A DNA stretch of 64,000 nt from a virus: the IMG/VR virus record IMGVR_UViG_3300032092_000011, positions 45,842 to 109,841 of that record; one strand, given 5' to 3'. The translations under genes were made by a program, and so were the position numbers. Below, piece by piece: positions 35,189 to 55,165 of the stretch (the stretch's first letter is position 1; every line of letters begins with the position of its first letter). The notes under the pieces are model-generated. The model was not told the origin of the DNA, did not search any database, and was given only the letters and a program-made list of their open reading frames with translations.

Positions 35189-35194
35189 AGATAC

Positions 35195-35252
35195 TGGATG
35201 CGCTTGTGTCAAAGTTAAAGTTTGATTTTGTAAAATTTGCTGCATGCATCCA
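35195..35252 (-). ncRNA. GGATGC-type stem element upstream of tRNA-Gln
   Basis: TGGATGC pairs with GCATCCA; CAGCAAATTTTAC lies just inside. Same framework as 29508-29562 and the flanks of the two permuted tRNAs, also directly before a tRNA. Confidence 0.5.
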
Positions 35253-35258
35253 AAATTC

Positions 35259-35591
35259 TTATTGCTCTTCCGATATGTCAAAGATCGATTTGCCTTTTTT
35301 AGTCATAAAGATAATGTCTTCACCATTAGCATCTTCAACCCAATCAATTAGTCCATCTTCTTTCATTTGGTCTAATTCTTGATTAAATCTTGCTTTAAAA
35401 AAAGCATATTCAAATTGCTCTTCAGTCATTTGAAATTCTTCTCCTTTTGTAAAACATTCGAAGAATATTTCAGAAATAGATTCAACTAAATATTCAGGAG
35501 TTGGATCTTCTTCTTGCAATGTTGGTTTAAGTAATTCAACAACATTTTCAGCTTCAACTCTGACTTTCTGTGGCCAATTTGTTTTTTCCAT
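35259..35591 (-). CDS. Hypothetical acidic protein, 110 aa
   Basis: Acidic, helical, with EDIIFMTKKGKSIFDI at the C-terminus. No family recognised. It is two bases from the lipoprotein gene. Confidence 0.72.
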   Translation of the reverse strand: MEKTNWPQKVRVEAENVVELLKPTLQEEDPTPEYLVESISEIFFECFTKGEEFQMTEEQFEYAFFKARFNQELDQMKEDGLIDWVEDANGEDIIFMTKKGKSIFDISEEQ

Positions 35592-35593
35592 TG

Positions 35594-35860
35594 TTATTTT
35601 ATAATGAATACTCGATAAGGTTTCATGAGTGTCAATTTAGAACCATCTGAATTGTAGTACCAAATAGAATCTTCATTCTGACCATAAATTGTATCAGTGT
35701 ACGCGATTGCTGGTCTAAGTTCTTCTGTAACATTAATCTCAGTCAAGCCAACTTGACGCTCGATTCTAGTTGGAACCATTCCTTCAATCTTGTACTTATA
35801 TTCTTTACCTTTACATGAAAAGAAAAGAATTGATAAACCTATTGCATAAATTACTTTCAT
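35594..35860 (-). CDS. Small lipoprotein, 88 aa
   Basis: ATG 35860 gives MKVIYAIGLSILFFSCKG, a signal peptide with lipobox FFSC. Longer in-frame extensions would run into tRNA-Leu. The body is beta-like with no family recognised. Confidence 0.75.
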   Translation of the reverse strand: MKVIYAIGLSILFFSCKGKEYKYKIEGMVPTRIERQVGLTEINVTEELRPAIAYTDTIYGQNEDSIWYYNSDGSKLTLMKPYRVFIIK

Positions 35861-35875
35861 CTTATAAAATTTTGG

Positions 35876-35961
35876 TACTCGAGGCGGGAATCGAACCCGC
35901 ACGAACCTTACGGTCCATCAGATTTTAAGTCTGACGTGTCTACCTATTCCACCACCCGAGC
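35876..35961 (-). tRNA. tRNA-Leu(TAA)
   Basis: Class II: acceptor GCTCGGG/CTCGAGT, anticodon loop CTTAAAA, long variable arm, T-loop TTCGATT. Confidence 0.95.
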
Positions 35962-35974
35962 ATGTTTAAGTATC

Positions 35975-36045
35975 TTCAATAACTTTAAGAACGTTACATC
36001 TATTATATCTGATGAAATCAGATTGTTTCATAACATGTTATTGAA
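35975..36045 (-). ncRNA. Inverted-repeat spacer between the fibre gene and tRNA-Leu
   Basis: TTCAATAAC/GTTATTGAA encloses a perfect ATCTGAT/ATCAGAT hairpin. It probably separates the fibre mRNA from the tRNA; it may also act as terminator or processing stem. Confidence 0.5.
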
Positions 36046-41013: not shown

Positions 41014-41043
41014 TTCTTAGTTATTTTATATTTTAAATATCGT

Positions 41044-41052
41044 ATTATATAT
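41044..41052 (-). promoter_or_regulatory. Late-type promoter box (ATATATAAT)
   Basis: ATATATAAT on the minus strand, 31 bases before ATG 41013 of the large fibre gene. Confidence 0.5.
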
Positions 41053-41064
41053 TTAGTTTTTTTG

Positions 41065-41149
41065 CGGAAGCTACAGGATTCGAACCTGTGGGACCGTGAA
41101 GTCCGCCACTTTAGCAAAGTGGCACGATAGACCGCTCTGACAAACTTCC
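41065..41149 (-). tRNA. tRNA-Ser(GCT)
   Basis: Class II: acceptor GGAAGTT/AGCTTCC, anticodon loop TTGCTAA, long variable arm, discriminator G. Confidence 0.94.
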
Positions 41150-41154
41150 AATGG

Positions 41155-41228
41155 GGTGACCAGTGGGGATCGAACCCACGACAACTAGAACCACAATCTA
41201 GTGCTCTACCAACTGAGCTATGGCCACC
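41155..41228 (-). tRNA. tRNA-His(GTG)
   Basis: Acceptor GTGGCCA/TGGTCAC with G-1 opposite C73, the His identity pair; anticodon loop TTGTGGT. Confidence 0.95.
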
Positions 41229-41233
41229 ATGTG

Positions 41234-41308
41234 TTGCGAGACCGGGACTCGAACCCGGAACTTCGGCTTATGAGACCGACGAGATAACCATTTTCTACGC
41301 ATCTCGCA
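41234..41308 (-). tRNA. tRNA with CAT anticodon (Met or Ile2), unusual D-arm
   Basis: Acceptor TGCGAGA/TCTCGCA, anticodon loop CTCATAA, T-loop TTCGAGT. The D-arm is less regular than in the other tRNAs. It could be elongator Met or a lysidine-modified Ile tRNA. Confidence 0.85.
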
Positions 41309-41314
41309 ATATAA

Positions 41315-41440
41315 TAAAAAGAGGTTTCGGGTCTTTCAGGGTTACTGATTATTAATGTTAAGGAGATGGGTGCACTGTCTACTCTAAACCCTTTTTCGAC
41401 CTTTTTCCATCTAATTAATAATTACAGCTTCACTACCTCT
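41315..41440 (-). ncRNA. Structured spacer between tRNA(CAT) and tRNA-Arg(ACG)
   Basis: Closed by AAAGAGGT/ACCTCTTT, then ATTATTAAT/ATTAATAAT and AGATGG/CCATCT on the same axis, giving a long interrupted hairpin of ~125 nt. No ORF. Confidence 0.6.
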
Positions 41441-41446
41441 TTTTTG

Positions 41447-41518
41447 TAGTCAATAAAGGATTCGAACCCTTATCTCTTGATCCGTAGTCAAGTGTTCTAT
41501 CCGTTGAACTAATCGACT
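41447..41518 (-). tRNA. tRNA-Arg(ACG)
   Basis: Acceptor AGTCGAT/ATTGACT, anticodon loop CTACGGA. A34 would need deamination to inosine (TadA), normally host-supplied. Confidence 0.94.
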
Positions 41519-41526
41519 AAATTATG

Positions 41527-41600
41527 TGGACCAGCCTGGGCTCGAACCAGGGACCTACGCATTATGAGTGCGGTGCTCTAACCAACTGAGCTACAAGTCC
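41527..41600 (-). tRNA. tRNA with CAT anticodon (Met or Ile2)
   Basis: Acceptor GGACTTG/CTGGTCC, anticodon loop CTCATAA, regular D-arm GCTC/GAGC. Elongator Met or Ile(CAU). Confidence 0.93.
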
Positions 41601-41606
41601 ATTTTG

Positions 41607-41677
41607 CACGGGTGGAGAGATTCGAACTCCCATCGACGGTTTTGGAGACCGGAATGCTACCATTGCACCACACCCGT
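41607..41677 (-). tRNA. tRNA-Trp(CCA)
   Basis: Acceptor ACGGGTG/CACCCGT, anticodon loop CTCCAAA, discriminator G. Confidence 0.95.
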
Positions 41678-41679
41678 AA

Positions 41680-41818
41680 ATTAAGGAAAAGAGAAGATGG
41701 TTCAGTGGACATCTCTTTTTACAATCGGCTTTACTTTGGTTTATACCTGCAAACTCCGATAATAACGATCAGTATAAACTCTTGAATCATAGTTATTATC
41801 ATTCCCCGATTAACCTTA
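41680..41818 (-). ncRNA. Pseudoknot-containing spacer between tRNA-Trp and tRNA-Tyr
   Basis: GATAATAAC pairs with GTTATTATC (9 bp), while GTTTATAC inside that loop pairs with GTATAAAC downstream (8 bp): an H-type pseudoknot. An outer AATCGG/CCGATT helix and an AAAAGAG/CTCTTTT hairpin flank it. No ORF. Confidence 0.65.
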
Positions 41819-41819
41819 G

Positions 41820-41901
41820 TGCCTGCAGAAGGACTCGAACCTCCGAACCCGTAAGGGAGCTGATTTACAGTCAGCTGCAATTGCCGCTATGCGATACAGG
41901 C
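41820..41901 (-). tRNA. tRNA-Tyr(GTA)
   Basis: Class II: acceptor GCCTGTA/TGCAGGC, anticodon loop CTGTAAA, long variable arm. Confidence 0.95.
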
Positions 41902-41973
41902 AAATTCCAATTTTGATGGGCTCATCTGATAATATGTTTCAATTACCCAGCACTTGAGATTGGGAACTCCTAG
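41902..41973 (-). ncRNA. Short structured spacer between tRNA-Tyr and tRNA-Val
   Basis: CCAAT/ATTGG and TGGG/CCCA helices; weak evidence beyond the pattern shared with the other inter-tRNA gaps. Confidence 0.35.
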
Positions 41974-42048
41974 TACATCTTGAAGGATTCGAACCTCCGA
42001 CCCTCTCGGTGTAAACGAGATGCTCTAAACCAACTGAGCTAAAGATGC
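41974..42048 (-). tRNA. tRNA-Val(TAC)
   Basis: Acceptor GCATCTT/AAGATGT, anticodon loop TTTACAC. Confidence 0.95.
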
Positions 42049-42051
42049 ATG

Positions 42052-42149
42052 GCGCTTCATATTATTCACAATTGATAATCATATTGGATTATCCACTCAA
42101 ACTTACGACAGCTTTTAACTGAGAGATCGTAAGATTGTGTATGAAGCAT
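42052..42149 (-). ncRNA. Three-way-junction RNA between tRNA-Val and tRNA-Lys
   Basis: Closing stem GCTTCATA..CACAAT with ATTGTG..TATGAAGC, then two hairpins, CTTACGA/TCGTAAG and GATAATC/GATTATC. ~98 nt, no ORF. Confidence 0.65.
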
Positions 42150-42152
42150 GTG

Positions 42153-42226
42153 TGACCCCGACAAGATTCGAACTTGTGACTCCCTCATTAAAAGTGAGGT
42201 GCTCTAGCCAACTGAGCTACGAGGTC
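42153..42226 (-). tRNA. tRNA-Lys(TTT)
   Basis: Acceptor GACCTCG/CGGGGTC, anticodon loop CTTTTAA. tRNA-Lys is the usual target of the PrrC anticodon nuclease. Confidence 0.95.
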
Positions 42227-42229
42227 AAA

Positions 42230-42318
42230 TTTCGTCTTTTCCTTACCGCTTACTATTCACATTGCCAGTCCGAAGTTACTGTCGGATGCTTACTTCTTTC
42301 GAAGAGTCAATAGTACAT
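42230..42318 (-). ncRNA. Structured spacer between tRNA-Lys and tRNA-Gly
   Basis: TACTATT/AATAGTA closes two hairpins, CTTC/GAAG (loop GAAA) and TCCGA/TCGGA. No ORF. Confidence 0.5.
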
Positions 42319-42320
42319 TG

Positions 42321-42392
42321 AGCAGGTAGAGAGAATCGAACTCTCATCTCCAGATTGGAAGTCTGGAGTAATAGCCGTTATACGATACCTGC
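42321..42392 (-). tRNA. tRNA-Gly(TCC)
   Basis: Acceptor GCAGGTA/TACCTGC, anticodon loop CTTCCAA, discriminator T. Confidence 0.95.
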
Positions 42393-42398
42393 TTGTTG

Positions 42399-42474
42399 TC
42401 GGATAGGCAAGATTCGAACTTGCGTGCTCTGCATCCCAAATGCAGCGAGATAAACCTAACTCCTCTACTATCCG
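42399..42474 (-). tRNA. tRNA-Pro(TGG)
   Basis: Acceptor CGGATAG/CTATCCG, anticodon loop TTTGGGA, discriminator A. Confidence 0.95.
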
Positions 42475-42483
42475 TTTATTTTG

Positions 42484-42556
42484 TGGTGCGGGGCAGGATC
42501 GAACTGCCGACACCAGGATTTTCAGTCCTGTGCTCTACCTACTGAGCTACCGCACC
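42484..42556 (-). tRNA. tRNA-Phe(GAA)
   Basis: Acceptor GGTGCGG/CCGCACC, anticodon loop CTGAAAA, discriminator A. Confidence 0.95.
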
Positions 42557-42562
42557 AAGTTG

Positions 42563-42632
42563 AGTACAAGGTTGGAATCGAACCAACTCCGCAGATTTTG
42601 CAGACCTGCTGGCCTCCAAGACCAACTCGTAC
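42563..42632 (-). tRNA. tRNA-Cys(GCA)
   Basis: Acceptor GTACGAG/CTTGTAC, anticodon loop CTGCAAA, discriminator T (U73 is the Cys identity base). First tRNA after the array promoter. Confidence 0.95.
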
Positions 42633-42949: not shown

Positions 42950-43168
42950 TTATTGATTTTTATCAAATTTTTTACAATCAATTTTTCCTACTTCCTGATA
43001 AGCTTGAAATAAGAGTGTTAAAGCTTCATCGACTTTGGTCGAAACTTCTTTCTCTAGCTTACATACTGGATGCTGTAATATATGGTCATCTATTGTACTC
43101 ATAATTACATGAAGTCGATCCAGCATTTCATGATAATGAAATTTATCTAATTTATCTTTTACACTCAT
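42950..43168 (-). CDS. Hypothetical protein, 72 aa
   Basis: Helical, no family recognised. The start overlaps the PAP2 stop by 4 bases. Confidence 0.65.
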   Translation of the reverse strand: MSVKDKLDKFHYHEMLDRLHVIMSTIDDHILQHPVCKLEKEVSTKVDEALTLLFQAYQEVGKIDCKKFDKNQ

Positions 43169-43863
43169 ATAAATGAATCTAGTGTTACTATTTTAAGACC
43201 GCATAATTTATCGCAAATTTCTCTAGAAAAATCTTGATCTGATTGATAGTGAATTCCGCCTTGTACTCTAGTGTGTGCAACTTTATCACAAAACTCTGCA
43301 ATTTTTTCTGCATGTTCTGGATATTTTTGACCAAGAATAGAAGCAATCATATATGAATCAAGAGCATGTCCACTTGGGTACGATGCAGTTGCAGCATTAG
43401 TCGGGCAAACTTGAAACATTCCAATTCCTAAAGGTCTTGCTAATTGCCATGGTCTTGCTCTATTATAATAATTCTTTAATTTATAAAGAAGAGGATCTGT
43501 AAAATCTGCGATTTTCTTTATTAAATCTTCATTGTCATCTAAACCTAACTCTTCTAGAAATTCGCCAATCACTTCATTAATATCTTTTTCAACATCTTCA
43601 ATTAACTCAATATCTTTATCAGTTAAATTATTTTGTTGTTTTAAAATGCTTTGTAATTCTTCAGCAGCTTCTGGACTTGAATTCTTTGGAAAAGGCTTGT
43701 TAAAGAATTCTTCTAAGATTCCTTTTTCACGACACATCTTCATAACAAGAGGTTCTTCTTCAACCATATATGTTTTACGATGTTTTAATGCTTCATTACC
43801 ATAACCAAGCATATCAATTTGGTTAAAGTCAGCAAACTCATTATATGATTTAATTTTTGCCAT
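43165..43863 (-). CDS. PAP2-family phosphatase, soluble, 232 aa
   Basis: All three PAP2/haloperoxidase motifs are present: KLKNYYNRARPW (K-x6-RP), YPSGHALDS (PSGH) and HTRVQGGIHYQSDQ (R-x5-H-x3-D). No transmembrane helices are visible, unlike most lipid phosphatases. The N-terminus MAKIKSYNEFADF resembles the T4 leader MKTYQEF, so it may be virion-packaged. Substrates could be lipid or nucleotide phosphates. Confidence 0.85.
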   Translation of the reverse strand: MAKIKSYNEFADFNQIDMLGYGNEALKHRKTYMVEEEPLVMKMCREKGILEEFFNKPFPKNSSPEAAEELQSILKQQNNLTDKDIELIEDVEKDINEVIGEFLEELGLDDNEDLIKKIADFTDPLLYKLKNYYNRARPWQLARPLGIGMFQVCPTNAATASYPSGHALDSYMIASILGQKYPEHAEKIAEFCDKVAHTRVQGGIHYQSDQDFSREICDKLCGLKIVTLDSFI

Positions 43864-44359
43864 TTTTAATCTTCTTTGTTATTTTTTTAAGACCTTCGTT
43901 CATAATACGATTCTGCTCTGTTAAAGTTTCATCAATTTGAATAATTGTTCGTTGCGATGATTCCATTTTAAGAACCCTTTCATCTCCTTCAGAACCTTCA
44001 TCTATTATATTAGTTTTTTGAAGATTTGTTTTATTTGGTACCTTACAATTTGCTGCAGTTCTTTGTAAATCTTCAATCATTTTTAAAATTTCTTGCTCTC
44101 TTTGAAATACTCTATCAGTGCATTCAATTTGTGTTTCTTGAACTCGTAGATTAAGGTCTGACACTTCTTTTCTAAGTTGATTAATCTCATTAGCCTTTTC
44201 GGTTAATTGAGTCTTTAGCTCAGTATCGTCATACGTTAGTGAAGAAACTATTTTGGGACCAACTGTAATAAAAGTTATTGACAATAATAAAATACACAAG
44301 GCCAGTATTCTCTGACCCTGTGTAAACTTACTTAATATTTGTGATATGTACTTAAACAT
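43850..44359 (-). CDS. Inner-membrane-anchored coiled-coil protein (spanin-like), 169 aa
   Basis: One transmembrane segment near 18-38 (RILALCILLLSITF), then a long periplasmic-type coiled coil (LTEKANEINQLRKEVSDL). Topology and neighbourhood (lysis genes) fit an i-spanin, but no o-spanin lipoprotein partner is nested here. It overlaps neighbours by 14 and 1 bases. Confidence 0.65.
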   Translation of the reverse strand: MFKYISQILSKFTQGQRILALCILLLSITFITVGPKIVSSLTYDDTELKTQLTEKANEINQLRKEVSDLNLRVQETQIECTDRVFQREQEILKMIEDLQRTAANCKVPNKTNLQKTNIIDEGSEGDERVLKMESSQRTIIQIDETLTEQNRIMNEGLKKITKKIKNGKN

Positions 44360-44949
44360 TATTTAATATCACTTGATTCAATCAATGTATAAGTGAATGA
44401 CTTACCATGGATTGCAGCTGCTTTTCTACAAATTGCCATAAATGATTCAAAATCTGCAGCTTTTTTAAATACTTGACATCCTTCTGACCAGTTTTCAACA
44501 TAAGTCGAATCAGCGCCAGCTTTGTGAATATTAATACCGAAGATACCTTCTTGAATTTTAGACTCATCATAAGTCATATCTCTATTTGGATCACGATAAA
44601 CTTTTACGGGTTTTTGTTGCTTAAGAGCTTCATATTTACCTTGGTGTAAACCTAAAGTATGCGAACCTCTATATTGACCTTCAACTAATCTAGCAACACC
44701 AGCAGCATTATGATATTCTTTAACACCTTTAGTTCCTGGATCTGTTGTACAAGGCCAGAAATGGAATTTCCATGCGCCGCCTTCTTTATATGAAACAGTC
44801 ATAATGTCATCAAATACATTGGTAACTTTATTTCCCGTAGCTGAATTTCTAACTCCTACGATATTAACATCGAAATCTTTGGCACCTTCAAACCACGCAT
44901 ATCCTTTTGCTTTTACCGCGGCTTCGATTTGTTCTCTTGTGTAACTCAT
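44359..44949 (-). CDS. L,D-transpeptidase-like / murein-active protein, 196 aa
   Basis: The region GIFGINIHKAG...ENWSEGCQVF has the H...SxGC arrangement of YkuD-type catalytic sites (catalytic Cys in SEGCQV). The Arg that usually follows Cys is replaced, so this is a divergent member. It lies in the lysis/envelope region and probably acts on peptidoglycan. Confidence 0.65.
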   Translation of the reverse strand: MSYTREQIEAAVKAKGYAWFEGAKDFDVNIVGVRNSATGNKVTNVFDDIMTVSYKEGGAWKFHFWPCTTDPGTKGVKEYHNAAGVARLVEGQYRGSHTLGLHQGKYEALKQQKPVKVYRDPNRDMTYDESKIQEGIFGINIHKAGADSTYVENWSEGCQVFKKAADFESFMAICRKAAAIHGKSFTYTLIESSDIK

Positions 44950-44986: not shown

Positions 44987-45394
44987 TTATATTGTTGAAT
45001 AATTAAGCATTGTATTAGACCCAGAATCTACAATTTTAAGTCCTTCATTTCGGTCAATAAATAACCATTCACAATCAGTTAAATCAAATTTATTTAGATG
45101 GTCAATAACTTCTGATACTTCAAAACACGAACATGAGTAAATATCAAATTGAAACATTGCTGGATCTTGTTTATCCCAAACATGTATTGCAGCATGTGAT
45201 GTTGCTAATGTTACTGTTCCGGTAATTCCTTCATTTCCAGGTTCATCTACATAAACAGAAGTTGGACCTGCAACTACTACCATTCTTACTTTTTTAACTA
45301 GTTCTCTAAACCAATTGTTTAAAACTTCTTCTGATTTTGGTGGGTTTTTCATGTGACCTTTTACTAAAAGGTGTAAATGATTTGGCGTAAACAT
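44987..45394 (-). CDS. S-adenosylmethionine decarboxylase-like protein, 135 aa
   Basis: The core TLATSHAAIHVWDKQDPAMF followed by QFDIYSCSCF resembles SpeH-type AdoMet decarboxylases (SHxxIHxWPE...D.FTC). The Pro-Glu of the usual motif is missing, so activity is uncertain. It could supply polyamine precursors for DNA packaging, or it could be a repurposed fold. A late-type box is 22 bases upstream. Confidence 0.6.
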   Translation of the reverse strand: MFTPNHLHLLVKGHMKNPPKSEEVLNNWFRELVKKVRMVVVAGPTSVYVDEPGNEGITGTVTLATSHAAIHVWDKQDPAMFQFDIYSCSCFEVSEVIDHLNKFDLTDCEWLFIDRNEGLKIVDSGSNTMLNYSTI

Positions 45395-45443: not shown

Positions 45444-45896
45444 TTATTGATGTTTGATTATCTGATTTACTGCATTTAAGAATAACCAATCTTCGACATT
45501 TTCTAATTTACATAAAAAATTATATTCATACACGTATGCATCATGTTCTTCCTTTTTCTCTGTTAATTTAATCTTAGCTCTCCAAACATATAGGTGGTAT
45601 GATTCGTGAACCAGGATGGCCGCAATATTATTAATTGAATTCATATTCATATCTCTAACAGTGATTGCTATTGTACTCGGAAGTTTCGTCGTTGAATGGT
45701 CACCAATAATAAATTCAACCTCTTTACAATGGTCAATTAATAATTTATAAGCATTTGAATCTTTCTCTTTAATTAGAGAAATGGCTGAATCTACCTTAGA
45801 TTTCCAGCCATCTCCAACATCATCGATTTTGATTTGTCCAAAAAGAGTATTTGTGATTAATAAGAATACGAATATTAAGGCATTTTGGTAACGCAT
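45444..45896 (-). CDS. Secreted putative zinc metallopeptidase, 150 aa
   Basis: Signal peptide ending in NTLFGQ (Bacteroidetes type). The zinc-site motif LVHESYHLYV (HExxH) lies near residue 95, with several downstream acidic residues. A short catalytic domain, family not identified. It overlaps the CsgG-like gene by 22 bases and is probably exported with that envelope module. Confidence 0.72.
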   Translation of the reverse strand: MRYQNALIFVFLLITNTLFGQIKIDDVGDGWKSKVDSAISLIKEKDSNAYKLLIDHCKEVEFIIGDHSTTKLPSTIAITVRDMNMNSINNIAAILVHESYHLYVWRAKIKLTEKKEEHDAYVYEYNFLCKLENVEDWLFLNAVNQIIKHQ

Positions 45897-46327
45897 TGTT
45901 CAATAGCTCTTTTTAACGCGTTTGATACTGTCATTTTTGAGAATGGAACTTTACCATCAACGAGTTCAATCATTACTGCTCGAACTTCAGTTTCAGACTC
46001 TCCAAATCCTTCATATTTTTGGCCTTTATAATAGAATCTAACACCAACTTGAGTTACTTGATTAGTTTTTTCAACTCCTGCAATTCTAATAGTTGTTTTA
46101 GGAATTCCAAAATAAAATACTTCAATTTTAACTGGTTCCCCTTTTTCTGACAAACAATATTTTGCTGATAACATGTCTTCAGCAATTTGCTCAATACCAA
46201 ATTTAATATCTCTATTGCCAAGTTCTCTTAATTTTGCAGTTGAATAAACTGTGTCTATTTTAACACATTCTTGCGAGAATACAAAAACTGGCATTAAAAA
46301 TAATATAATTAATAATAAATTTTTCAT
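45875..46327 (-). CDS. Short CsgG-family-like exported protein, 150 aa
   Basis: Signal peptide ending PVFVFSQ. The region TNQVTQVGVRFYYKGQKYEG then VSNALKRAIEQC parallels the larger CsgG-like protein at 49.7 kb (TQITRLGLQVRF...SLETAAARIV). It is shorter than true CsgG and may be an accessory or trimmed pore subunit. It shares its first base with the lectin gene end. Confidence 0.6.
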   Translation of the reverse strand: MKNLLLIILFLMPVFVFSQECVKIDTVYSTAKLRELGNRDIKFGIEQIAEDMLSAKYCLSEKGEPVKIEVFYFGIPKTTIRIAGVEKTNQVTQVGVRFYYKGQKYEGFGESETEVRAVMIELVDGKVPFSKMTVSNALKRAIEQCVTKMP

Positions 46328-48081
46328 TAGTTAGCGAATCCTGTTTTTATCAGATAGAACGTTGAAGAACCACCTGCTGTTGGGTTAGTTAAAGTTACAG
46401 TTTGAGTACCTGGATATGTTGCAGACAAATTAGATGTTGATGTGTTTATAATACTCCATTCGGTATTTGTAAATAATCTATATGACGGTACTGTAAACGC
46501 GTTTCCATTAATTCTTTTATAGATTAAATAAACATCAGATATTGTTAAATTAGAATTTCCATTGGTATTCATTCTATAATAATCTTTAGCATTAAATGTT
46601 TGTGATAATACCTTTTGATTAAATATTGCTGCGTCAGCTGTGCTAGGTGCTGAAAAAGTTAAACCATCAATAGTTACTTGAAAATCATAACTAGCAATAT
46701 CTAATGAAGTTGAAATTGTAAATACTCCAGAACTATTAGTATTATATGTTTGTAATAACGTATATGTTGATCCTGCTTTTGTTTTATAATATAACTTAAC
46801 AGTGATATTTTGAACACCAATTCCTTCAGAATTATAAATAGTTCCTGAATAAGTAAATGGGGTTGGATAATTTACAGTTGCAACAACTGGGGTTCTTGTT
46901 GAACTAACACATCCAGTTGATGAATTTCTAGCTTGTACGTAATAAGTTGTAGTTGCTGAAATACTGGGTGTTGTAAATGATAGCGTTCCAGATCCACCAG
47001 ATAAAACGTTACCTCCAGTTGCATTAGCATACCAATCTGCAGTAATTCCAGTTCCAGTGGTTGCTGATAATGATACTGTTCCAGCAAGAGTTCTACTTCC
47101 ATCAACTCCAGTCGGCGCAGATGGTGAAGTTGCAGGACTACATGCAATTTGATGAGTAACAAAACCTGTATAAAATTGAGTAAATGTTTGATTTGCTGGA
47201 TCTGTCCATGTACCAAACTCAACTACATATCCACCGACACTTGAAAAATTACCATCACGTAAATCATTCCAGTTGCTATTTCCGTTCCATTTAGTTACAG
47301 CATGGTCTTCTCCAATTGAACCATCTGAATTATTAGGTTCTCCACCAGCCCATGCTGAATATCGACCGGGTGCTGTTGTTCCAGTGGATCCGTATGACCA
47401 TGTTGTTGCATTAGTAACAGAAGTAGATGCAGTCCAAATAACAGTTCCAGTTTCTGGTCCAGCATCAATTCTCCAAGATCCTTCTTGAGTTGCATCAGAT
47501 AAAGCTATCCAAATATTACTTACAGGTACATTTGCAAAGATAAAATTCTGTTCATCAGCATCCATGATATTTGCTAAATATCCAGTTTGACCTTTAAATG
47601 TTTGGGCAGCAGCTGCACTTTTTGCAGAAGAATAAGATACTGCACCGGTGATTGGTCGATAAAAGTGACCATTTGATGGTAAGTAAAAATATCCAGTTGG
47701 ATTTTCGGTTGCAGTTACTGCAATATAAAGATTTCCTGGAACTGAACCAGTATTTACTCTTAATGAAGCTAATACAGTATTAATATTTGATTGGGTACCA
47801 GTAAAACTAATTCTAGTAAAATTAGATGTTATGTTATAACCAGTACTTGCTGATACACCAGAAGTAGTATTAAATCGCAAAGTTGTTCCAGCTGGAGGAT
47901 TTACTAATCCAACAGTAACTAATAAAGTTGTAGTTGAATTAAATCCAGAAACAGAAAAGCCAGAAGCGCTTTGATTTGAAGTACTTTGATTGTATGAAGT
48001 TGCTGACGGACTTGTAACACTTTGTGTAAATCCATCTAATGTTAATAAAACACATGTTAGAAATATTAATAATCTTTTCAT
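46327..48081 (-). CDS. Secreted C-type-lectin adhesin with Ig-like and dockerin-like modules, 584 aa
   Basis: Signal peptide 1-20 (LTLDGFTQ). Residues ~20-120 form a beta repeat. A C-type lectin domain (~125-300) follows, with WIALSDATQEGSWR, WAGGEPNNSDG and WNDLRDG (the EPN sugar-specificity motif is intact). Then come an Ig-like domain (~320-405, TTYYVQARNSSTGCV) and a C-terminal module with the dockerin-like NGNSNLTISDVYLI that is also present in the T9SS adhesin at 51.1 kb. It would bind glycans outside the host cell or on the virion. Confidence 0.82.
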   Translation of the reverse strand: MKRLLIFLTCVLLTLDGFTQSVTSPSATSYNQSTSNQSASGFSVSGFNSTTTLLVTVGLVNPPAGTTLRFNTTSGVSASTGYNITSNFTRISFTGTQSNINTVLASLRVNTGSVPGNLYIAVTATENPTGYFYLPSNGHFYRPITGAVSYSSAKSAAAAQTFKGQTGYLANIMDADEQNFIFANVPVSNIWIALSDATQEGSWRIDAGPETGTVIWTASTSVTNATTWSYGSTGTTAPGRYSAWAGGEPNNSDGSIGEDHAVTKWNGNSNWNDLRDGNFSSVGGYVVEFGTWTDPANQTFTQFYTGFVTHQIACSPATSPSAPTGVDGSRTLAGTVSLSATTGTGITADWYANATGGNVLSGGSGTLSFTTPSISATTTYYVQARNSSTGCVSSTRTPVVATVNYPTPFTYSGTIYNSEGIGVQNITVKLYYKTKAGSTYTLLQTYNTNSSGVFTISTSLDIASYDFQVTIDGLTFSAPSTADAAIFNQKVLSQTFNAKDYYRMNTNGNSNLTISDVYLIYKRINGNAFTVPSYRLFTNTEWSIINTSTSNLSATYPGTQTVTLTNPTAGGSSTFYLIKTGFAN

Positions 48082-49664
48082 TACAATAACATTCTAGTTC
48101 CCATCATCACTGTATAATTTAGGGCAGCATCTTTAATAGCCCAAGCTCCACCAACATTAATATTTATTTTAAATCTTTTTGTGATACCGACATTAGTTCC
48201 AATGATAGGTAAAACTACATGAGGTGATTTTAATAATATATCGTTATAATAACTAACATATGGGGCGTAAACATAGAGTAACATTGTTTTAACTGCGATT
48301 CTCTTATTTACATTCCAATCATGCATTCCTCCGGCAATTACGGCAGTTCCAATAAAAGGTTCTCCATAAACTTGACCAGAAGAAGCTGTTAACATATAAA
48401 CAAGCTTCATATTTTTAGGCTTATTAAGCGTCCACATCTGTCCTAACGCTAATGTTCCATAAAGAGTTGGCTTAGCTTCAAATCCAATTGTTACTGAAGT
48501 TGAAATTAGGTCAATTCTTTTTGGTTTCATAAATGCATAGAATCCTGTAATATTTGGACCTCTAAGTGCAGAAGTGTAATCAGCATTTATACCCCAACTT
48601 CTTCTACCATCCCATCTCATTGATGTTAAACCACCTGTAACTTTACCACCGTAAGTAACATCAGAATTCTTAAAGTTGAACCCAACAAAATCACTACTTG
48701 CTAAAATTGAAGGTCTATTTCCATTTTTTGCGCCAGCTCCCGCTGCTTTATTATTTCCACCAGAACTTCCACTACCATCTCCAGAAGAAGATCCAATTGA
48801 ATTTACTGAGCTTCCAACTAAGTTTGTTTTCCCTTCGCTTTCTGATCCAGTTGTTCCTGTTTCTTGAGAATTTCCTTGGCCCGAACCATTGCCTGTTCCA
48901 GTTCCATTCCCGCCTGAACCAGTATTGCCGCTATTCTGACCTGATCCGTTGTTGGTTGTTGATCCTGTAGTTCCTGAGCCTTGCGAACCAGATCCGGTTG
49001 AACTCGAACCTTGCGAACTTGTGCCGGTTGAACTTGATCCTGTGGTTCCTGAACTTTGCGAACTTGTGCCGGTTGAACTTGATCCGCCCTGTGTGCCATT
49101 TTGGTTTCCCTGTCCATTATTAGATCCAGTGCTACTTGAGTTATTGCCAGTCCCGCTACCATTGCTAGAACCACTAGACACATTATTGTTACTATTGTTT
49201 CCATTTGATTGGTTATTTTTATTACCACCTTTAGATCCAGAACTAGAATTTCCACCGGTAGAAGTTTGCATACTACCAACACTTCCACCCAGCATATTAC
49301 TAGTTCCAGTTGCCATATCTGCTAATGATGATAATGAGTTAACAATACCTAAAAAATTAATAGCAGAACTTTGAGCAACTGTTACAGCAGCTGGCATACC
49401 AACAACGCTAGCACATGGATTATTATTACCAAACGATGAAAAAACACCTTGCGCCCAAGACTCGAACGTTCCACTGTAAAAGTCTCCTGGCGCAAATGTT
49501 CTAATTTGTCCGTAATATGTTACAGTAACTCCATTAGAAGGTACCGATATTGTTTTTATTGCTCCAGTACATGGATCAGTGTATGAATATGAAATTGTCT
49601 GTCCATAAGATACTCCTGAAAATAACAAGAAAAACAAGAAGATGATAAGATTTTTAACATACAT
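48081..49664 (-). CDS. Outer-membrane barrel protein with long Ser/Gly/Thr/Asn linker, 527 aa
   Basis: Signal peptide 1-22 (SGVSYGQ), a small N-terminal domain to ~135, then ~170 residues of low complexity (SSTGTSSQGSS type), and a C-terminal ~200-residue beta-barrel ending with aromatic/hydrophobic alternation (VMMGTRMLL). It fits an outer-membrane protein exposing a flexible tether. It shares one base with the lectin gene and follows the CsgG-like gene by 2 bases, so the three are coupled. Confidence 0.72.
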   Translation of the reverse strand: MYVKNLIIFLFFLLFSGVSYGQTISYSYTDPCTGAIKTISVPSNGVTVTYYGQIRTFAPGDFYSGTFESWAQGVFSSFGNNNPCASVVGMPAAVTVAQSSAINFLGIVNSLSSLADMATGTSNMLGGSVGSMQTSTGGNSSSGSKGGNKNNQSNGNNSNNNVSSGSSNGSGTGNNSSSTGSNNGQGNQNGTQGGSSSTGTSSQSSGTTGSSSTGTSSQGSSSTGSGSQGSGTTGSTTNNGSGQNSGNTGSGGNGTGTGNGSGQGNSQETGTTGSESEGKTNLVGSSVNSIGSSSGDGSGSSGGNNKAAGAGAKNGNRPSILASSDFVGFNFKNSDVTYGGKVTGGLTSMRWDGRRSWGINADYTSALRGPNITGFYAFMKPKRIDLISTSVTIGFEAKPTLYGTLALGQMWTLNKPKNMKLVYMLTASSGQVYGEPFIGTAVIAGGMHDWNVNKRIAVKTMLLYVYAPYVSYYNDILLKSPHVVLPIIGTNVGITKRFKININVGGAWAIKDAALNYTVMMGTRMLL

Positions 49665-49665
49665 T

Positions 49666-50385
49666 TTATGATTTAAAGATTCCTTTTTTAATCATACGAC
49701 TTACAATTCTTGCTGCGGCTGTTTCTAGTGACTTCTTAGTTGTAATACCAATATGAGATTGATTGAATTTAATTTCACTATCGTCAATTCCATCTAGAAT
49801 TGAAACAGTTTTAACCGTTTTAGCCTCTCCTAATCCAGATCCGACTAAAACTTCTCCAGTCTCAGCATCAACAAAGCGAACTTGAAGACCTAAACGCGTA
49901 ATTTGTGTTGTTTGAGATTGTCCATTAATTTTTACAACCTCATCATCAGATACTGAAAAGTCATATACCTCAATATAAACAAAGTATTTAGCAAGTTTAA
50001 TTTTACCCTTGCCATCCATTGTATTTTCAGTAAATCCTTTTGCTGATGCTTTAAATTGGTTAATCATTCTTTCTTTGATTTCCAATTTATCTTCAGTAAA
50101 TACGAATCGGTTTGTATATTCTAAATATTCTAATACAATATTAGTTACACCAAGACCAACTCTTTTGTCCTTTAATTCAGGGTACATTTCATATAGTTCT
50201 TCGCTGATTCCAATTTTTAAGATTTGAATTGGAATCTTAATAGTGTCTTTATATTCAGGTACCGAATCAATTGACATTTTCTTTTCAAAGTCAGCTTGGT
50301 ACTGCTCAGACTTGATAGTTCCGATCTGAGCAGTTGCCATAGCTACATTGAAAATTAAACAAATTAAAAGTGCTAATTTTTTCAT
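49666..50385 (-). CDS. CsgG-like outer-membrane secretion/pore protein, 239 aa
   Basis: ATG 50385 gives a signal peptide ending MATAQ. The body matches the CsgG family: RVGLGVTNIVLEYLEYTNRF, then YFVYIEVYDF, TRLGLQVRFVDAETGEVL and AAARIVSRMIKKG. CsgG forms a nonameric outer-membrane channel for curli subunits. Unlike CsgG, no lipobox Cys is evident at the cleavage site. Here it probably serves the adjacent phage-encoded exported proteins, or forms a lysis pore. Confidence 0.8.
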   Translation of the reverse strand: MKKLALLICLIFNVAMATAQIGTIKSEQYQADFEKKMSIDSVPEYKDTIKIPIQILKIGISEELYEMYPELKDKRVGLGVTNIVLEYLEYTNRFVFTEDKLEIKERMINQFKASAKGFTENTMDGKGKIKLAKYFVYIEVYDFSVSDDEVVKINGQSQTTQITRLGLQVRFVDAETGEVLVGSGLGEAKTVKTVSILDGIDDSEIKFNQSHIGITTKKSLETAAARIVSRMIKKGIFKS

Positions 50386-50386: not shown

Positions 50387-50749
50387 TTAAACATCTGTTG
50401 TATTTGATAGAGAAACTCCATCTTCTTCATCAACTTTTTGAATTAACATTTTGTCTCTGTCTTCTGAATTGAACCAATAATCTACAACTTTATTAAGATT
50501 ACCAACAAAGGCTCCTAATAAGATTAATAACATTTCTTTCCAATCTTCACCGACAGTTAATCCAAACATAATTCCTGCATTAATTCCTAATATGATAAAG
50601 AAAAATAAGAATAATACTATTCCTGTAATTTTCCAACGATTAGATTGCATTTGTTGTAACATAAAATAGAATCGATTTTTATCTTCTACTTTTATGTAAT
50701 CTTCTTTACCAAATCCTAACATTTTCTTAATTGACATAAAGATATTCAT
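50387..50749 (-). CDS. Two-helix membrane protein (holin-like), 120 aa
   Basis: Two hydrophobic segments (ITGIVLFLFFFIILGI and a second near residue 80) with charged ends. Size and location beside the endolysin region fit a holin or antiholin. No family recognised. Confidence 0.65.
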   Translation of the reverse strand: MNIFMSIKKMLGFGKEDYIKVEDKNRFYFMLQQMQSNRWKITGIVLFLFFFIILGINAGIMFGLTVGEDWKEMLLILLGAFVGNLNKVVDYWFNSEDRDKMLIQKVDEEDGVSLSNTTDV

Positions 50750-50756: not shown

Positions 50757-51098
50757 TTACCAAGGAGCGTCTTCAGTTTCGCTCTTTTTCTCTTTTTTCT
50801 TCTCTTCTTTCTTTTCAGTTGCTGGTTTTTCAACAACTCTTTCACGAATGATCGTGTTAGTTCCACCACCATTTGATGAATTATTTTGAGATGAGTTATC
50901 AACATTTAAGTTAATAACAGGTTGCGCTGGAGCAGCTTGTTCAGTTTTGGTTTCTTCCTTATCGTCACCACCATTGAAAAGTGTAGTAGTAACCCAAGTA
51001 CCGCCAGCTAAAACTGCTGTTGAAAGAGTACCGATTAAGGTTTTCTTTAAACCTGACCAAGTACCATCATTAGTCTCTACGTTTTGTTCGTCTGACAT
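50757..51098 (-). CDS. Single-pass membrane protein with charged tail, 113 aa
   Basis: A hydrophobic segment near residues 20-40 (LIGTLSTAVLAGGTW), then an Asn/Ser-rich linker and a Lys/Glu-rich tail (EKKEEKKKEKK). No family recognised; lysis-region neighbour. Confidence 0.65.
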   Translation of the reverse strand: MSDEQNVETNDGTWSGLKKTLIGTLSTAVLAGGTWVTTTLFNGGDDKEETKTEQAAPAQPVINLNVDNSSQNNSSNGGGTNTIIRERVVEKPATEKKEEKKKEKKSETEDAPW

Positions 51099-51119: not shown

Positions 51120-53051
51120 TTAGTTTTTAATAATTCTAACCGATCCCTTTTGACCAGTTGCTTGTAAAGTTCCAAAATATAAGCCTTGCGCGACATGATT
51201 GATATTAAAATCATAATTATAAACTCCAGCAGGCATATCTTTATCAAAAATAACATGTATTGGTCGACCATTCATATCATATACTTCTAATCTAACTCGA
51301 CCTGTATTTTTAACTTCGAATTTAATATTTGCGTAACCAGTGGTTGGATTTGGATAAACCATCATTTTAGTTTCTTCTTCAGTTACACCAATTGTACTTG
51401 GCGCTGACATTTTAAATACAACTAAAATACCATTAGTTGGAGAAACTGATAAATCTTTAGAATTTACATCTCCTGAAAACTTTCTAGTAGTTGCAAGAGG
51501 TGACTGACCCCATTGATTTTGTGGTCTTTTTGCAATAAATCTTAGTTTAAAAACTTCATATCCGTCAGGAATCATATAATCTTTATTTACAGATGGGTCA
51601 TAACCTGCCCATTCAATCATATCGTCCATTGGATTAAGAGAAGACATCCAAAACATTGCTTTTGGCGAGTTTTTAATATCTTTAAATTCTAATAAACTAT
51701 CATTATAAATTAAACCTAATTGAAGTGAAGATACTTCTAAACCATTAGTATTAACAACTACTGGAAGTTCAACTAAGTTGCCTTCAGTAACTGTTAGGTG
51801 TGGTAGGTTCACTTCAATATTGTTAGTTGGAAAATCATATTCAACCTTCATGTCAATCACATTTTCAATAGCGGCTGGTGTGCCGGGTTGAGGATTTGTG
51901 GTAACTTCAATTGGCGTTAAACGCGCCATGTTATAACCAGTACCGTTCGCATCACCAGGAACTAGAACATAGAATTGAACTGAATCAGGTTGACCTGGTA
52001 AAATATTATAATAGAAATTAGTTACACCAGGAATAGATGAAGTATAGTTAGTTGCAGGTGTACCAGTGATAGTATTCTTTTCAGATACTGTAAAGAATTT
52101 AACATCTTTTACACCATTGGGCCAAGCTGAAAATCTTCCGGCAATTCTACCAAATACACCATAAGCATCGGTGATTGAGATATTATTAGATCCATTAACA
52201 TCGCCAGTGTAGAAATCCCACGCTGATGGAGTTGCAGATCCTAGTACCCATTGATTAATTAATTGAGCATCTGCTGTTGAAATTACGTTGCCAACAGTCA
52301 TTGTATCACCTTTAATTGCTAAACGAACATCATAGTATGTTGTATCAATTAATTCAGTAAATGCAAAATCGCCATTTAAATCAGTAGTGTAAGATGCATG
52401 TTGAGACCAAGTTGATCCAGTTTTAACTTTCTTTTCTAATGCCAATGTTAGGTTTTTAGCACCAGTTCCAGTTACGTTTGTAAATGTACCATGGAAATTA
52501 AGTTCTGGCTTTTCCCATACACCACCATAACTATGTAAAGTTAAAGTTGTGTCCATACCATCTTGAGTAGCTGCAACTTGAGAATACGTTGCAGAACCAG
52601 TCCATGTTAAATCAGAAATTGCAGAAAGAGCATAGAAAGAAGATGCAGTAACGTGTGTGAATGTCATTTCAAATCTTTCTCCATCTGGAATTTCATACGT
52701 AGATGACGAACCTGTATAAACAACGGTAGCGGTAAGATAACCGCCAGCATTATTGTCAACAAATTGTAAGTTTAAGTTTGATGTAGAACCTAATAGAGCA
52801 ATAGAAGCTGCTGAAAAGGCATTTTTATCATAAAAAATTCTAAACTGATAACCAGTTATTAGAGTTGAAGTGGTGTTTTGAACTGTTAATTTGGCTTTTG
52901 ATTGAGCCTGAATACTAGTACCGACTTGGTATGTTGTATCGATAATAACATAGATTCCATTACCTGGTGCCGGAGGTCCTGTTTGAGAGAAACCAACGAA
53001 TGGAGTAATGAAAGCTAATAGAATGAGTAGATTCTTTAAAAAGTTTTTCAT
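51120..53051 (-). CDS. Secreted cohesin/dockerin-like adhesin with type IX sorting domain, 643 aa
   Basis: Signal peptide ending FVGFSQ. A cohesin-like beta domain (~25-165) is followed by a CNA-B-like module, a dockerin-like stretch DVNGSNNISITDAYGV (~290), a second cohesin-like domain (~430-550), and a C-terminal domain (~565-643) with MMVYPNPTTGYANI, VYDMNGRPI and a final KGSVRIIKN. That last domain is the type IX secretion sorting signal used by Bacteroidetes. The protein should be exported by the host T9SS and attached to the surface or released. Confidence 0.85.
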   Translation of the reverse strand: MKNFLKNLLILLAFITPFVGFSQTGPPAPGNGIYVIIDTTYQVGTSIQAQSKAKLTVQNTTSTLITGYQFRIFYDKNAFSAASIALLGSTSNLNLQFVDNNAGGYLTATVVYTGSSSTYEIPDGERFEMTFTHVTASSFYALSAISDLTWTGSATYSQVAATQDGMDTTLTLHSYGGVWEKPELNFHGTFTNVTGTGAKNLTLALEKKVKTGSTWSQHASYTTDLNGDFAFTELIDTTYYDVRLAIKGDTMTVGNVISTADAQLINQWVLGSATPSAWDFYTGDVNGSNNISITDAYGVFGRIAGRFSAWPNGVKDVKFFTVSEKNTITGTPATNYTSSIPGVTNFYYNILPGQPDSVQFYVLVPGDANGTGYNMARLTPIEVTTNPQPGTPAAIENVIDMKVEYDFPTNNIEVNLPHLTVTEGNLVELPVVVNTNGLEVSSLQLGLIYNDSLLEFKDIKNSPKAMFWMSSLNPMDDMIEWAGYDPSVNKDYMIPDGYEVFKLRFIAKRPQNQWGQSPLATTRKFSGDVNSKDLSVSPTNGILVVFKMSAPSTIGVTEEETKMMVYPNPTTGYANIKFEVKNTGRVRLEVYDMNGRPIHVIFDKDMPAGVYNYDFNINHVAQGLYFGTLQATGQKGSVRIIKN

Positions 53052-53064: not shown

Positions 53065-53886
53065 TTATTTTAAAAGGTTGTAGTATTCTTTGAAATGCTT
53101 AATACGATCAGCAAGACCAATTGTACCACCGTTTACTCTTTTAGTTACTGCAGTAACTGTAGCATCATCAGCACCTCTATCACAAATAGACCATAATCCA
53201 TTTGAATTAAAGAAGAATGCAGCAGAAGCTAAAGGATATTTAGTTGCAACTAAATCAGGATTTGCAATAGTATCTTCACCAATAAATTTAGCAAAGTTTG
53301 TGTAGTTTGATTTACCAGTTAATTGGATATAACCTCTACCACGGAATTTAAATCCTTCTTTTGATGCCTCATCTCCATTACCCATTCTAGATGCGTAAAC
53401 CTTTGATGCAATTTTTTCAGGGTTTCTAGCATATCCAGCTGCTGTAGTTGCATTGAAATACTTTCCAAAGATTTTTACTAATCCATCAGCTGAATAATTA
53501 AGATTTTCTGAAACTGCCTTGAAGCCGCCACTTTCATGTCCACATTGTGCTAGAAAATGAGCAAGTCTTAATGTATTTGTAATTCCAAACTTAGCAGCAG
53601 TATCTGGAATTTGTGCAATAACGGCGTCAGGAATATGTCCTTTTAAAGCCTCTAACTTAAATTGAGAAGCTGGAATTGAAACTGGAGCTGCGGTCGATGC
53701 AGAAGATCCGAACATCTTTCCCCAAGTTCCATCACCAACAATACCATCTGGTGTTAAACCATTTTTTGATTGCCAAGCCTTTACAGCTTCAGTAGTTTTT
53801 GGTCCAAATGAACCATCGGCCGGAAGGCCTAATTTTTCTTGTAATTTTTTAACGTCTTCACCTGAAGACCCTACTTTTAGTAACAT
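53065..53886 (-). CDS. Endolysin: peptidoglycan-binding plus GH19 domain, 273 aa
   Basis: An N-terminal PG-binding domain (VKKLQEKLGL...GSFGPKTTEAVKAW, 1-60), linker, then a GH19 chitinase-like lysozyme domain: LAHFLAQCGHESGGF (catalytic Glu), FKFRGRGYIQLTGKSNY and the VTKRVNGG tail. It has no signal peptide, so it depends on a holin. It lies 21 bases after the two-helix gene at 53.9 kb. Confidence 0.93.
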   Translation of the reverse strand: MLLKVGSSGEDVKKLQEKLGLPADGSFGPKTTEAVKAWQSKNGLTPDGIVGDGTWGKMFGSSASTAAPVSIPASQFKLEALKGHIPDAVIAQIPDTAAKFGITNTLRLAHFLAQCGHESGGFKAVSENLNYSADGLVKIFGKYFNATTAAGYARNPEKIASKVYASRMGNGDEASKEGFKFRGRGYIQLTGKSNYTNFAKFIGEDTIANPDLVATKYPLASAAFFFNSNGLWSICDRGADDATVTAVTKRVNGGTIGLADRIKHFKEYYNLLK

Positions 53887-53906: not shown

Positions 53907-54203
53907 TTATTCTGCTGTTTCTTCTGCTATTTCTTGAGAAGTTGCTTTCTTTACATCTTTTTTAGCAGCTGTAAATTTATCAATTGAAGATAAACCTAAG
54001 CAACCAAAAGCTAAAAGAGCAACTGCATCTACAAGGTAAGGAGCAGGAGCAACATCAACAGTTGAAAAACTATTGTGATACATTGTTACACAAAGCGCTA
54101 CAGCACACATAATGCCGACAAAACGTTTTGATGATGGGGTTCCAGACTCGTCTTTGAACAAGCCGCCAACCCATTTTACAGAGTTTTCGATTAATTTTTT
54201 CAT
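53907..54203 (-). CDS. Holin-like protein, 98 aa
   Basis: Two hydrophobic segments (RFVGIMCAVALCVTM and YLVDAVALLAFGCLG) with a Lys/Glu-rich C-terminus. Length, topology and adjacency to the endolysin gene fit a phage holin. Confidence 0.75.
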   Translation of the reverse strand: MKKLIENSVKWVGGLFKDESGTPSSKRFVGIMCAVALCVTMYHNSFSTVDVAPAPYLVDAVALLAFGCLGLSSIDKFTAAKKDVKKATSQEIAEETAE

Positions 54204-54273: not shown

Positions 54274-54299
54274 AAAAGGACTCAATATTGAGTCCTTTT
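54274..54299 (-). terminator. Rho-independent terminator (perfect palindrome)
   Basis: AAAAGGACTCAAT followed directly by ATTGAGTCCTTTT, 23 bases past the stop of the nuclease gene. Confidence 0.85.
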
Positions 54300-54321: not shown

Positions 54322-54912
54322 TTATCTGCAGTTACATTTAAATTTAGTGTAATCTGAGTTTAGTGGTTTAACATTTGGAAAGAAATAACAGTCAATATTA
54401 TTTCCGTACCTAACAGTTTTATAGAATCCGGTTGGAATTGCAGCACCAGATGACAATCTAGTTATTTTATTAAATTCAACTTTGATAGTTACATAGACAT
54501 CGTATCTTTTTGCAAGCTCTCGTTCAGAAATTTCTAGCATTTTCCATGGTCCACGATTTAGGCTTTGTTGTTGAAGTGCTGAATTAGCGTATGAGAAAGT
54601 TGTACGCAGCATTGTTGTGTTGCAGTTAAAAGATGCGGCTGGGGCCATGTGACCTTTATCCCATTCATTTGCAACATAATCAGCATTATCAGAAGTTTTA
54701 AGACCTGGCACCGTATAGAAATCCATACCCGATCTTGATGCAGTTCCAGTTGGACATAAAACTTTATATTCAACTGCTCTAGGCTGTTCTAATACTTCTG
54801 AATAGAGAATCTTAAAATACTCGTTTTGAACTACAACACTGTCTCGAAGAGTTTGTGACCACCCTGTGACAGCTGTCAAGGTGATTAATAGAAATAATAA
54901 TAATTTTTTCAT
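54322..54912 (-). CDS. Secreted DNA/RNA non-specific endonuclease, 196 aa
   Basis: ATG 54912 gives a signal peptide (MKKLLLFLLITLTAVTGWSQ). The catalytic motif is WDKGHMAPAA (His88, usual DRGH), and the metal-site Asn region is YANSALQQQSLNRGPW. It is a NucA/Serratia-type betabetaalpha-Me nuclease. It would act in the periplasm or outside the cell, for example clearing extracellular DNA or excluding other phages' DNA. Confidence 0.88.
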   Translation of the reverse strand: MKKLLLFLLITLTAVTGWSQTLRDSVVVQNEYFKILYSEVLEQPRAVEYKVLCPTGTASRSGMDFYTVPGLKTSDNADYVANEWDKGHMAPAASFNCNTTMLRTTFSYANSALQQQSLNRGPWKMLEISERELAKRYDVYVTIKVEFNKITRLSSGAAIPTGFYKTVRYGNNIDCYFFPNVKPLNSDYTKFKCNCR

Positions 54913-54922
54913 TAGTCTGGTT

Positions 54923-55165
54923 TTATTTATTAGCTTCAATCAATATAGTAATACCAGCTGCTCCAGCCGATATCATATATTTATTGTATCTATTATCATT
55001 TAACCAGCCATATTTTTTAAACTCAAATATGATAGTATCTTTATCCTCAAACCAGACATGTATCGCATTTGTTGCATAATCTATTGATGGATGTTTCATT
55101 AAACCCAATTTCCAACTTTCTCTATATTCTTCCTTTAATTCGTCGGGTGTTATATGAATAATCAT
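54923..55165 (-). CDS. Hypothetical protein, 80 aa
   Basis: Contains NAIHVWFEDKDTIIFEF, loosely similar to the core of the AdoMet-decarboxylase-like protein at 45 kb. No firm family. One base separates it from the thioesterase stop region. Confidence 0.6.
   Translation of the reverse strand: MIIHITPDELKEEYRESWKLGLMKHPSIDYATNAIHVWFEDKDTIIFEFKKYGWLNDNRYNKYMISAGAAGITILIEANK

Follow-up and report, generated by a model that had tools for sequence, protein, structure and literature searches.

A closely packed run of minus-strand genes was analysed in a 64,000-nucleotide stretch of viral DNA (the window), corresponding to positions 45842-109841 of the 109,841-base virus record IMGVR_UViG_3300032092_000011. 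The run includes five genes, P1 to P5, together with a gene for a cohesin-domain scaffold bearing a type IX secretion system (T9SS) sorting domain and two genes for small membrane proteins, g50757 and g50387. We read these genes as a conserved module of Bacteroidota phages for the cell envelope and for surface display, by which the infected cell would be coated with adhesins, and we judge the chances of this reading to be evenly balanced. Its parts are seen in sequence and fold: the cohesin scaffold, the lectin P3, the CsgG-fold proteins P1 and P4, the barrel protein P2 and g50757 all co-occur.

Gene order and conservation of the module

Open reading frames (ORFs) were called mechanically. An earlier reading made from the DNA letters (the sequence-only reading) had described a coupled operon of five genes, and all five ORFs were found on the minus strand, overlapping or nearly touching. 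The junctions are +1 nt for g50387/P1, +1 nt for P1/P2, -1 nt for P2/P3, -1 nt for P3/P4 and -22 nt for P4/P5. The coupling stands but the extent of five genes does not, as the packed run is longer and reaches from 54203 to 45444 in the order holin-like ORF, GH19 endolysin, cohesin/T9SS protein, g50757, g50387 and P1 to P5. Between 53886 and 45444 the gaps are at most 21 nt. Each of P1 to P5 opens with a signal peptide, as had been claimed; these are of Sec type with a Bacteroidota-style xxAQ/SQ/GQ end. Because dozens of other phage contigs share this order and close spacing, the P1-P5 arrangement is not due to chance.

In the viral collection P1 had at least 168 relatives. The query from Flavobacterium phage immuto returned 113 relatives, partly overlapping with those from the window query. 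Host genomes (a collection of 84,980 species) held relatives on two contigs only. P1 is essentially a phage-only protein (mean column identity 76 %), and because of this scarcity in hosts it is regarded as a phage family under strong constraint. Capture of a host curli gene as the origin of P1 was rejected on account of the same two contigs, neither of whose genomes has a Pfam CsgG match.

Co-occurrence was scored in 60 distinct phage loci that had sufficient flanking sequence. These were found by similarity to P1; thus P1 is present by construction and its partners are not. The cohesin/T9SS protein, P2 and P4 were each present in 60/60 loci, followed by g50757 (58/60), P5 (39/60) and g50387 (32/60). 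A lectin/dockerin gene lies downstream of the module in 47/60 loci and upstream instead in immuto-type loci.

Phage immuto (160 kb) is the sole annotated phage with the P1 module, and there the products are labelled as hypothetical proteins; the homologues of P1, P2 and P4 are gp17, gp18 and gp19. Its module is at 10.5-16.4 kb and follows genes for DNA replication and for a secreted nuclease; the chitinase and holin genes lie at 43.7-44.8 kb, and the structural genes begin at about 80 kb. A location of the module among structural genes was considered and discarded, as this is not so in immuto. The module is widespread and is present in this isolated phage with a named host (Flavobacterium LMO8), so the role of CsgG-type phage genes is directly testable.

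Predicted functions of the module proteins

The scaffold protein matched Cohesin PF00963 (E-value 9e-8; 32.8 bits, curated cut-off 24.1), Por_Secre_tail PF18962 (2.9e-10; 40.7 bits, curated cut-off 27) and TIGR04183 (7e-10, above cut-off). It has both a Sec signal peptide and a T9SS type A sorting domain, as type A cargo does in sequence. Among 23 distinct sequences of relatives, the sorting domain was found in 23/23 and the cohesin in 21/23.

The C-type lectin noticed earlier in P3 was recovered through EPN/WND motifs and a Lectin_C match (0.0017) in the window copy, which also has an Ig_7 domain (2.2e-17, Pfam). No T9SS signal was found in P3. When 26 relatives were compared, the N-terminal binding domains were exchanged (Lectin_C in 18, best 3.5e-17; Laminin_G_3 in 8; GEVED in 3; PA14 in 1) and the dockerin-like C-terminus stayed constant. 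Such domain swapping on a constant C-terminus points to an adhesin, not to a lysis enzyme. Dockerin_1 was matched in 6/26 relatives, the best at 5.9e-4, a weak match.

P1 was modelled with AlphaFold2 (AF2) from 24 relatives; all models in this study are of single chains. Structure prediction had been proposed as a check by the sequence-only reading, and the P1 chain came out CsgG-like: in Foldseek the top 24 matches were all CsgG (best E-value 2.5e-8), and VIA aligned CsgG 6l7a with Z 12.1 and a root-mean-square deviation (rmsd) of 3.9 over 176 residues. The best non-CsgG match in VIA was PelC (Z 9.9, rmsd 2.7 over 129 residues), and LptE, FlgT and LPHT-ring entries gave Z near 8-9. A hidden Markov model (HMM) of CsgG-family proteins from Bacteroidota genomes placed the P1 proteins at the top of all phage ORFs (E-value 2e-7), and hhalign of P1 against this host family scored 36, against a maximum of 18.3 over 60 column shuffles. 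Pfam CsgG (PF03783) gave no P1 match, with 0 in the window's own record at E<=10. P1, P2 and P4 had no curated-family match in Pfam, NCBIfam, PHROGs or PADLOC and no sequence match in the PDB.

The model and the profile comparisons indicate that P1 is of the CsgG fold. In the alignment of 24 P1 sequences with E. coli and host CsgG, a sequence-level comparison at low identity, the first membrane-hairpin region has 21 aa (0 % aromatic, 31 % charged) and the second 28 aa (4 % aromatic, 25 % charged). The hairpins of E. coli CsgG have 26 and 37 aa (12 % and 14 % aromatic), and those of the phage CsgG proteins of HTVC008M and Melnitz retain 26 and 37/38 residues. The pore-forming membrane hairpins of P1 thus look lost, and a periplasmic ring similar to PelC or FlgT is more likely than a pore. 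Of the CsgG-like channel described earlier, the CsgG-type fold is therefore kept and the channel is not, as the corresponding hairpins are short, polar and aromatic-poor and P2 supplies a barrel. A lipobox-like signal was seen in 60/141 P1 homologue ORFs (about 43 %); the window P1 is without one.

P4, described earlier as a short CsgG-like protein, is homologous to P1: the two fall in the same HMM family, and hhalign of the P1 and P4 families gave 97 % (E-value 5e-11). On one contig (L034:10212-12923) the lectin P3 and the short P4 form a single ORF of 903 aa, where near-identical contigs have two ORFs. The joined ORF is probably a frameshift or sequencing error; a natural fusion, if true, would support an interaction between P3 and P4.

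For P2 the AF2 model gave 12 strands at residues 319-526 with pLDDT (predicted local distance difference test) mostly 86-93, in agreement with the outer-membrane barrel proposed before. The N-terminus was modelled as a small domain and a helix (84-118), and a disordered linker of about 195 aa, rich in Gly/Ser/Asn/Thr, lies between helix and barrel. This linker (region 48722-49305) is of low complexity and varies strongly in length among relatives. VIA matched P2 with the autotransporter translocators EspP (Z 24.8) and NalP (24.5) and with KdgM (19.8) and FapF (19.3); Foldseek matched FapF at 1.1e-6. As VIA aligns more P2 residues than the barrel contains, the helix may sit inside the pore, the arrangement known from autotransporters. 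Phage proteins with an outer-membrane barrel are not unusual.

Among the smaller proteins, g50757 has a periplasmic tail rich in Pro/Ala/Lys with a terminal APW/ESW, and its gap to P1, where the two are adjacent, is at most 30 nt in 80/103 pairs. No consistent Pfam match was obtained for g50387. A lone Phage_holin_4_1 match in its set probably belongs to the immuto holin, which had been added as an outgroup row, and the assignment of g50387 as a holin was dropped as unsupported by Pfam. The HExxH motif of the peptidase proposed for P5 is kept, with HESxH and a downstream EE..Y..E invariant in 21/21 aligned relatives; the Pfam matches of P5 (DUF2268/SprT) were weak. Coordinates are collected in Table 1.

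Table 1 Features of the packed run and the hairpin upstream of it (window coordinates)
Feature	Coordinates	Strand	Basis
P1, CsgG-fold protein of 239 aa, secreted, predicted to form a periplasmic/outer-membrane ring	49666..50385	-	AF2 model, Foldseek, VIA, host CsgG-family HMM
P2, N-terminal domain and helix, disordered linker, predicted C-terminal 12-stranded outer-membrane beta-barrel	48081..49664	-	AF2, VIA, Foldseek
P3, predicted surface adhesin: C-type lectin, Ig_7, conserved dockerin-like C-terminus	46327..48081	-	Pfam, relatives
P4, short secreted P1 paralogue	45875..46327	-	hhalign; same HMM family
P5, secreted HExxH metallopeptidase-like protein, accessory	45444..45896	-	Motif conservation
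g50387, conserved membrane protein with two transmembrane segments, possibly holin-like	50387..50749	-	Kept in 32/60 loci
g50757, N-in protein with one transmembrane segment, predicted inner-membrane partner	50757..51098	-	Kept in 58/60 loci
Cohesin-domain scaffold, dockerin-like segment, T9SS type A C-terminal sorting domain	51120..53051	-	Pfam, TIGR04183
GH19-type endolysin with peptidoglycan-binding domain	53065..53886	-	Pfam, PHROG
Small holin-like membrane ORF, head of run	53907..54203	-	98 aa, hydrophobic segments, directly 5' of endolysin
Terminator-like hairpin upstream of run	54274..54299	-	11-bp stem, loop 4, T-rich tail

Proposed adhesin display and competing explanations

In the mechanism that we propose, the scaffold would be exported and anchored at the surface via the type IX system of the host. 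P1 and P4 would form a CsgG/PelC-like periplasmic ring, and this ring, together with g50757 on its inner face and P2 as the outer-membrane barrel, would export or anchor P3. The dockerin-like end of P3 would then dock onto the scaffold cohesins, and the infected cell would be covered with glycan-binding adhesins. The likely benefit would be that infected cells adhere to, or aggregate with, new hosts or particles ('sibling capture', as proposed for pelagimyophages, in which CsgG and CsgF occur; PMC7029224), or that their surface is hidden from other phages. If this is true, phages cover the cells they infect with adhesins of their own, pairing hijacked host secretion with a self-encoded system.

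The interpretation shifts towards surface display because the upstream cohesin/T9SS protein, which had been missed earlier, belongs to the run. The display of adhesins is further supported by the co-occurrence of this protein with P1, P2 and P4, the domain swapping in P3, the P1 fold, the P2 barrel and the signal peptides, and by immuto, in which the module lies apart from the holin/chitinase pair and from the structural genes. By analogy with PelC-PelB and CsgG, parts for assembly and export of P3 would be the simplest account of P1, P4, P2 and g50757. A more specific form of the proposal, which we hold as tentative and somewhat doubtful, is a cellulosome-like adhesive layer, in which a T9SS-exported cohesin scaffold would carry exchangeable dockerin-tagged lectins exported by a machine of a pore-less P1/P4 ring and the P2 barrel. 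Such a two-part phage outer-membrane machine, if true, would differ as an export system from both type VIII and T9SS.

Several points weigh against adhesin display. The confidence of the P1 model is modest (pLDDT 67), and export of P3 by P1/P2/P4 is suggested by gene order only. The dockerin assignment is weak, with best Pfam E-values of 3.9e-4 to 5.9e-4, 14.6 bits for Dockerin_1 in the window scaffold (under the curated cut-off of 22.9) and one intact Ca-loop only (DVNNDGxxTISD) in the P3 C-terminal consensus; docking of P3 on the scaffold is accordingly put forward as a hypothesis. Finally, the proximity of the endolysin (within 2 kb in 38/60 loci) would fit a role in lysis as well.

A lysis module is the main rival, though we consider it unlikely. 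The P1 ring, the P2 barrel and g50757 would bridge and disrupt the outer membrane once holin and endolysin have acted, replacing spanins or working beside them. The sequence-only reading had suggested an outer-membrane disruption system as one possibility and had placed the genes in an envelope/lysis neighbourhood, and in this genome the holin-like ORF and the endolysin do head the run. The endolysin was matched by PG_binding_1 (1.9e-14) and Glyco_hydro_19 (3.5e-10) in Pfam and by a PHROG endolysin (1.8e-69); the holin-like ORF had no PHROG match. The lipobox-like signals among P1 homologues also favour lysis, and a CsgG-type pore was proposed as the lysis trigger of the Methylophilales phage Melnitz (PMC9004378). 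However, an endolysin is found within 44/60 loci and on the same strand in 32/60; in many loci it is encoded on the opposite strand or missing from the vicinity, and the module of immuto is far from holin and chitinase. The topology of g50757 and P1 is compatible with an i-spanin/o-spanin pair, but the Rz-like match falls on a separate gene of the window, a spanin candidate at 43850-44359 with an N-terminal transmembrane segment and a coiled coil (phrog_739, 4.9e-5). Moreover, a lysis role leaves the obligate cohesin, the T9SS signal and the lectins unexplained. An endolysin-related protein, L,D-transpeptidase-like by eye, adjoins the Rz-like gene at 44359-44949. Because the module is near the endolysin in most genomes, it is probably expressed late.

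Superinfection exclusion seems quite improbable. Here the displayed lectins and scaffold, or the ring-barrel complex, would mask or block receptors, and a secreted nuclease would degrade incoming DNA. The predicted surface exposure of glycan-binding proteins is in line with this, and a similar role was proposed for T9SS cargo of Cryophage (PMC7468147). Just upstream of the run, the gene at 54322-54939 indeed encodes a secreted DNA/RNA non-specific endonuclease, with a signal peptide and an Endonuclease_NS match (1.3e-22). Its homologues are within or near the module in 10/60 loci, directly preceding it in immuto; the nuclease is an inconstant part. The apparent position beside lysis genes in many genomes would also be late for exclusion. 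There was no PADLOC match, and a defence system was rejected on the same result.

A true type VIII (curli) secretion system, with P1 as the pore, P2 and P3 as substrates or nucleators and the amyloid subunits unrecognised, is very improbable. The CsgG fold of P1 and the resemblance of P2 to FapF, an amyloid secretion barrel, would fit, and complete type VIII sets occur in pelagiphages (PMC9599517). Nevertheless, no Pfam CsgG, CsgE, CsgF or curlin match was obtained among the ten module proteins, the membrane hairpins of P1 are polar and short, and no small repeat-containing subunit gene was seen in the module.

Least probable of all are virion parts, either of the adsorption apparatus or as decorations: virions often carry lectin and Ig-like domains, but Sec signal peptides throughout, the T9SS sorting signal of the scaffold, the outer-membrane barrel and the place of the immuto module outside the structural block speak against them. 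No literature on virion proteomics of immuto was found.

Relation to known systems and neighbouring genes

CsgG in marine phages and T9SS cargo in phages are already known. The type VIII genes of pelagimyophages, HTVC023P-type pelagiphages and Melnitz (CsgG, CsgF, curlin-repeat), with a fuller type VIII system reported in pelagiphages (PMC9599517), likewise represent a phage-borne CsgG fold in a conserved envelope operon. The CsgG genes of HTVC008M and Melnitz adjoin genes for single-stranded DNA-binding proteins, and the immuto module is likewise near replication genes. However, the CsgG proteins of pelagiphages and Melnitz share 37-40 % identity with E. coli CsgG and retain the hairpins, whereas a search with E. 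coli CsgG did not detect P1; scored with one and the same host CsgG profile, P1 reached about 26 bits and pelagiphage/Melnitz CsgG 144-148 bits. The P1 module also lacks CsgF and curlin partners and has a separate barrel, the cohesin/T9SS scaffold and a lectin instead. P1 was thus rejected as a known pelagiphage-type CsgG because both sequence and partners differ.

T9SS cargo has been reported for Cryophage (PMC7468147) and near BACON ORFs in crAss-like phages (PMC6949934). These, too, are phage proteins whose type A sorting domain would direct them to the T9SS of the host. They are variable single enzymes or repeat proteins, unlike the conserved cohesin scaffold (sorting domain in 23/23) in a fixed multi-gene module described here. 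We found no report of the combination of cohesin/T9SS protein, CsgG-fold protein, barrel and lectin in the literature searched, in which subscription journals and preprints were sparsely covered.

Three bacterial systems offer partial likenesses. PelB-PelC consists of a CsgG-related lipoprotein ring without a pore of its own and a separate outer-membrane barrel; among the matches of P1 other than CsgG, PelC ranks first. However, P2 has 12 strands, no TPR repeats were seen in it and no Pel enzymes were found, and membership is not claimed. With FapF (the Pseudomonas functional amyloid exporter) and autotransporters, P2 shares a 12-stranded barrel and an N-terminal helix, but it has the 195-residue disordered Gly/Ser/Asn linker and no Fap partners. 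As in cellulosomes, cohesins would be on a cell-bound scaffold and a dockerin-like domain on binding proteins, here as judged from sequence; in contrast, the dockerin is weak with one clear Ca-loop, there are no cellulases and the genes are phage-encoded.

Other genes were noted around the module. Directly 3' of it, at 44987-45394, is a phage S-adenosylmethionine decarboxylase (AdoMet_dc, 3.9e-11), and a PAP2-superfamily phosphatase (1.4e-7), possibly an envelope lipid enzyme, is encoded nearby at 43165-43863. The window contains 25 tRNA genes at 28414-42632, which cover most amino acids. Two giant tail-fibre-like ORFs are located at 36046-41013 (1655 aa) and 632-5572 (1646 aa); both had collagen-like/tail-fibre PHROG matches, and the former also has collagen repeats in Pfam.

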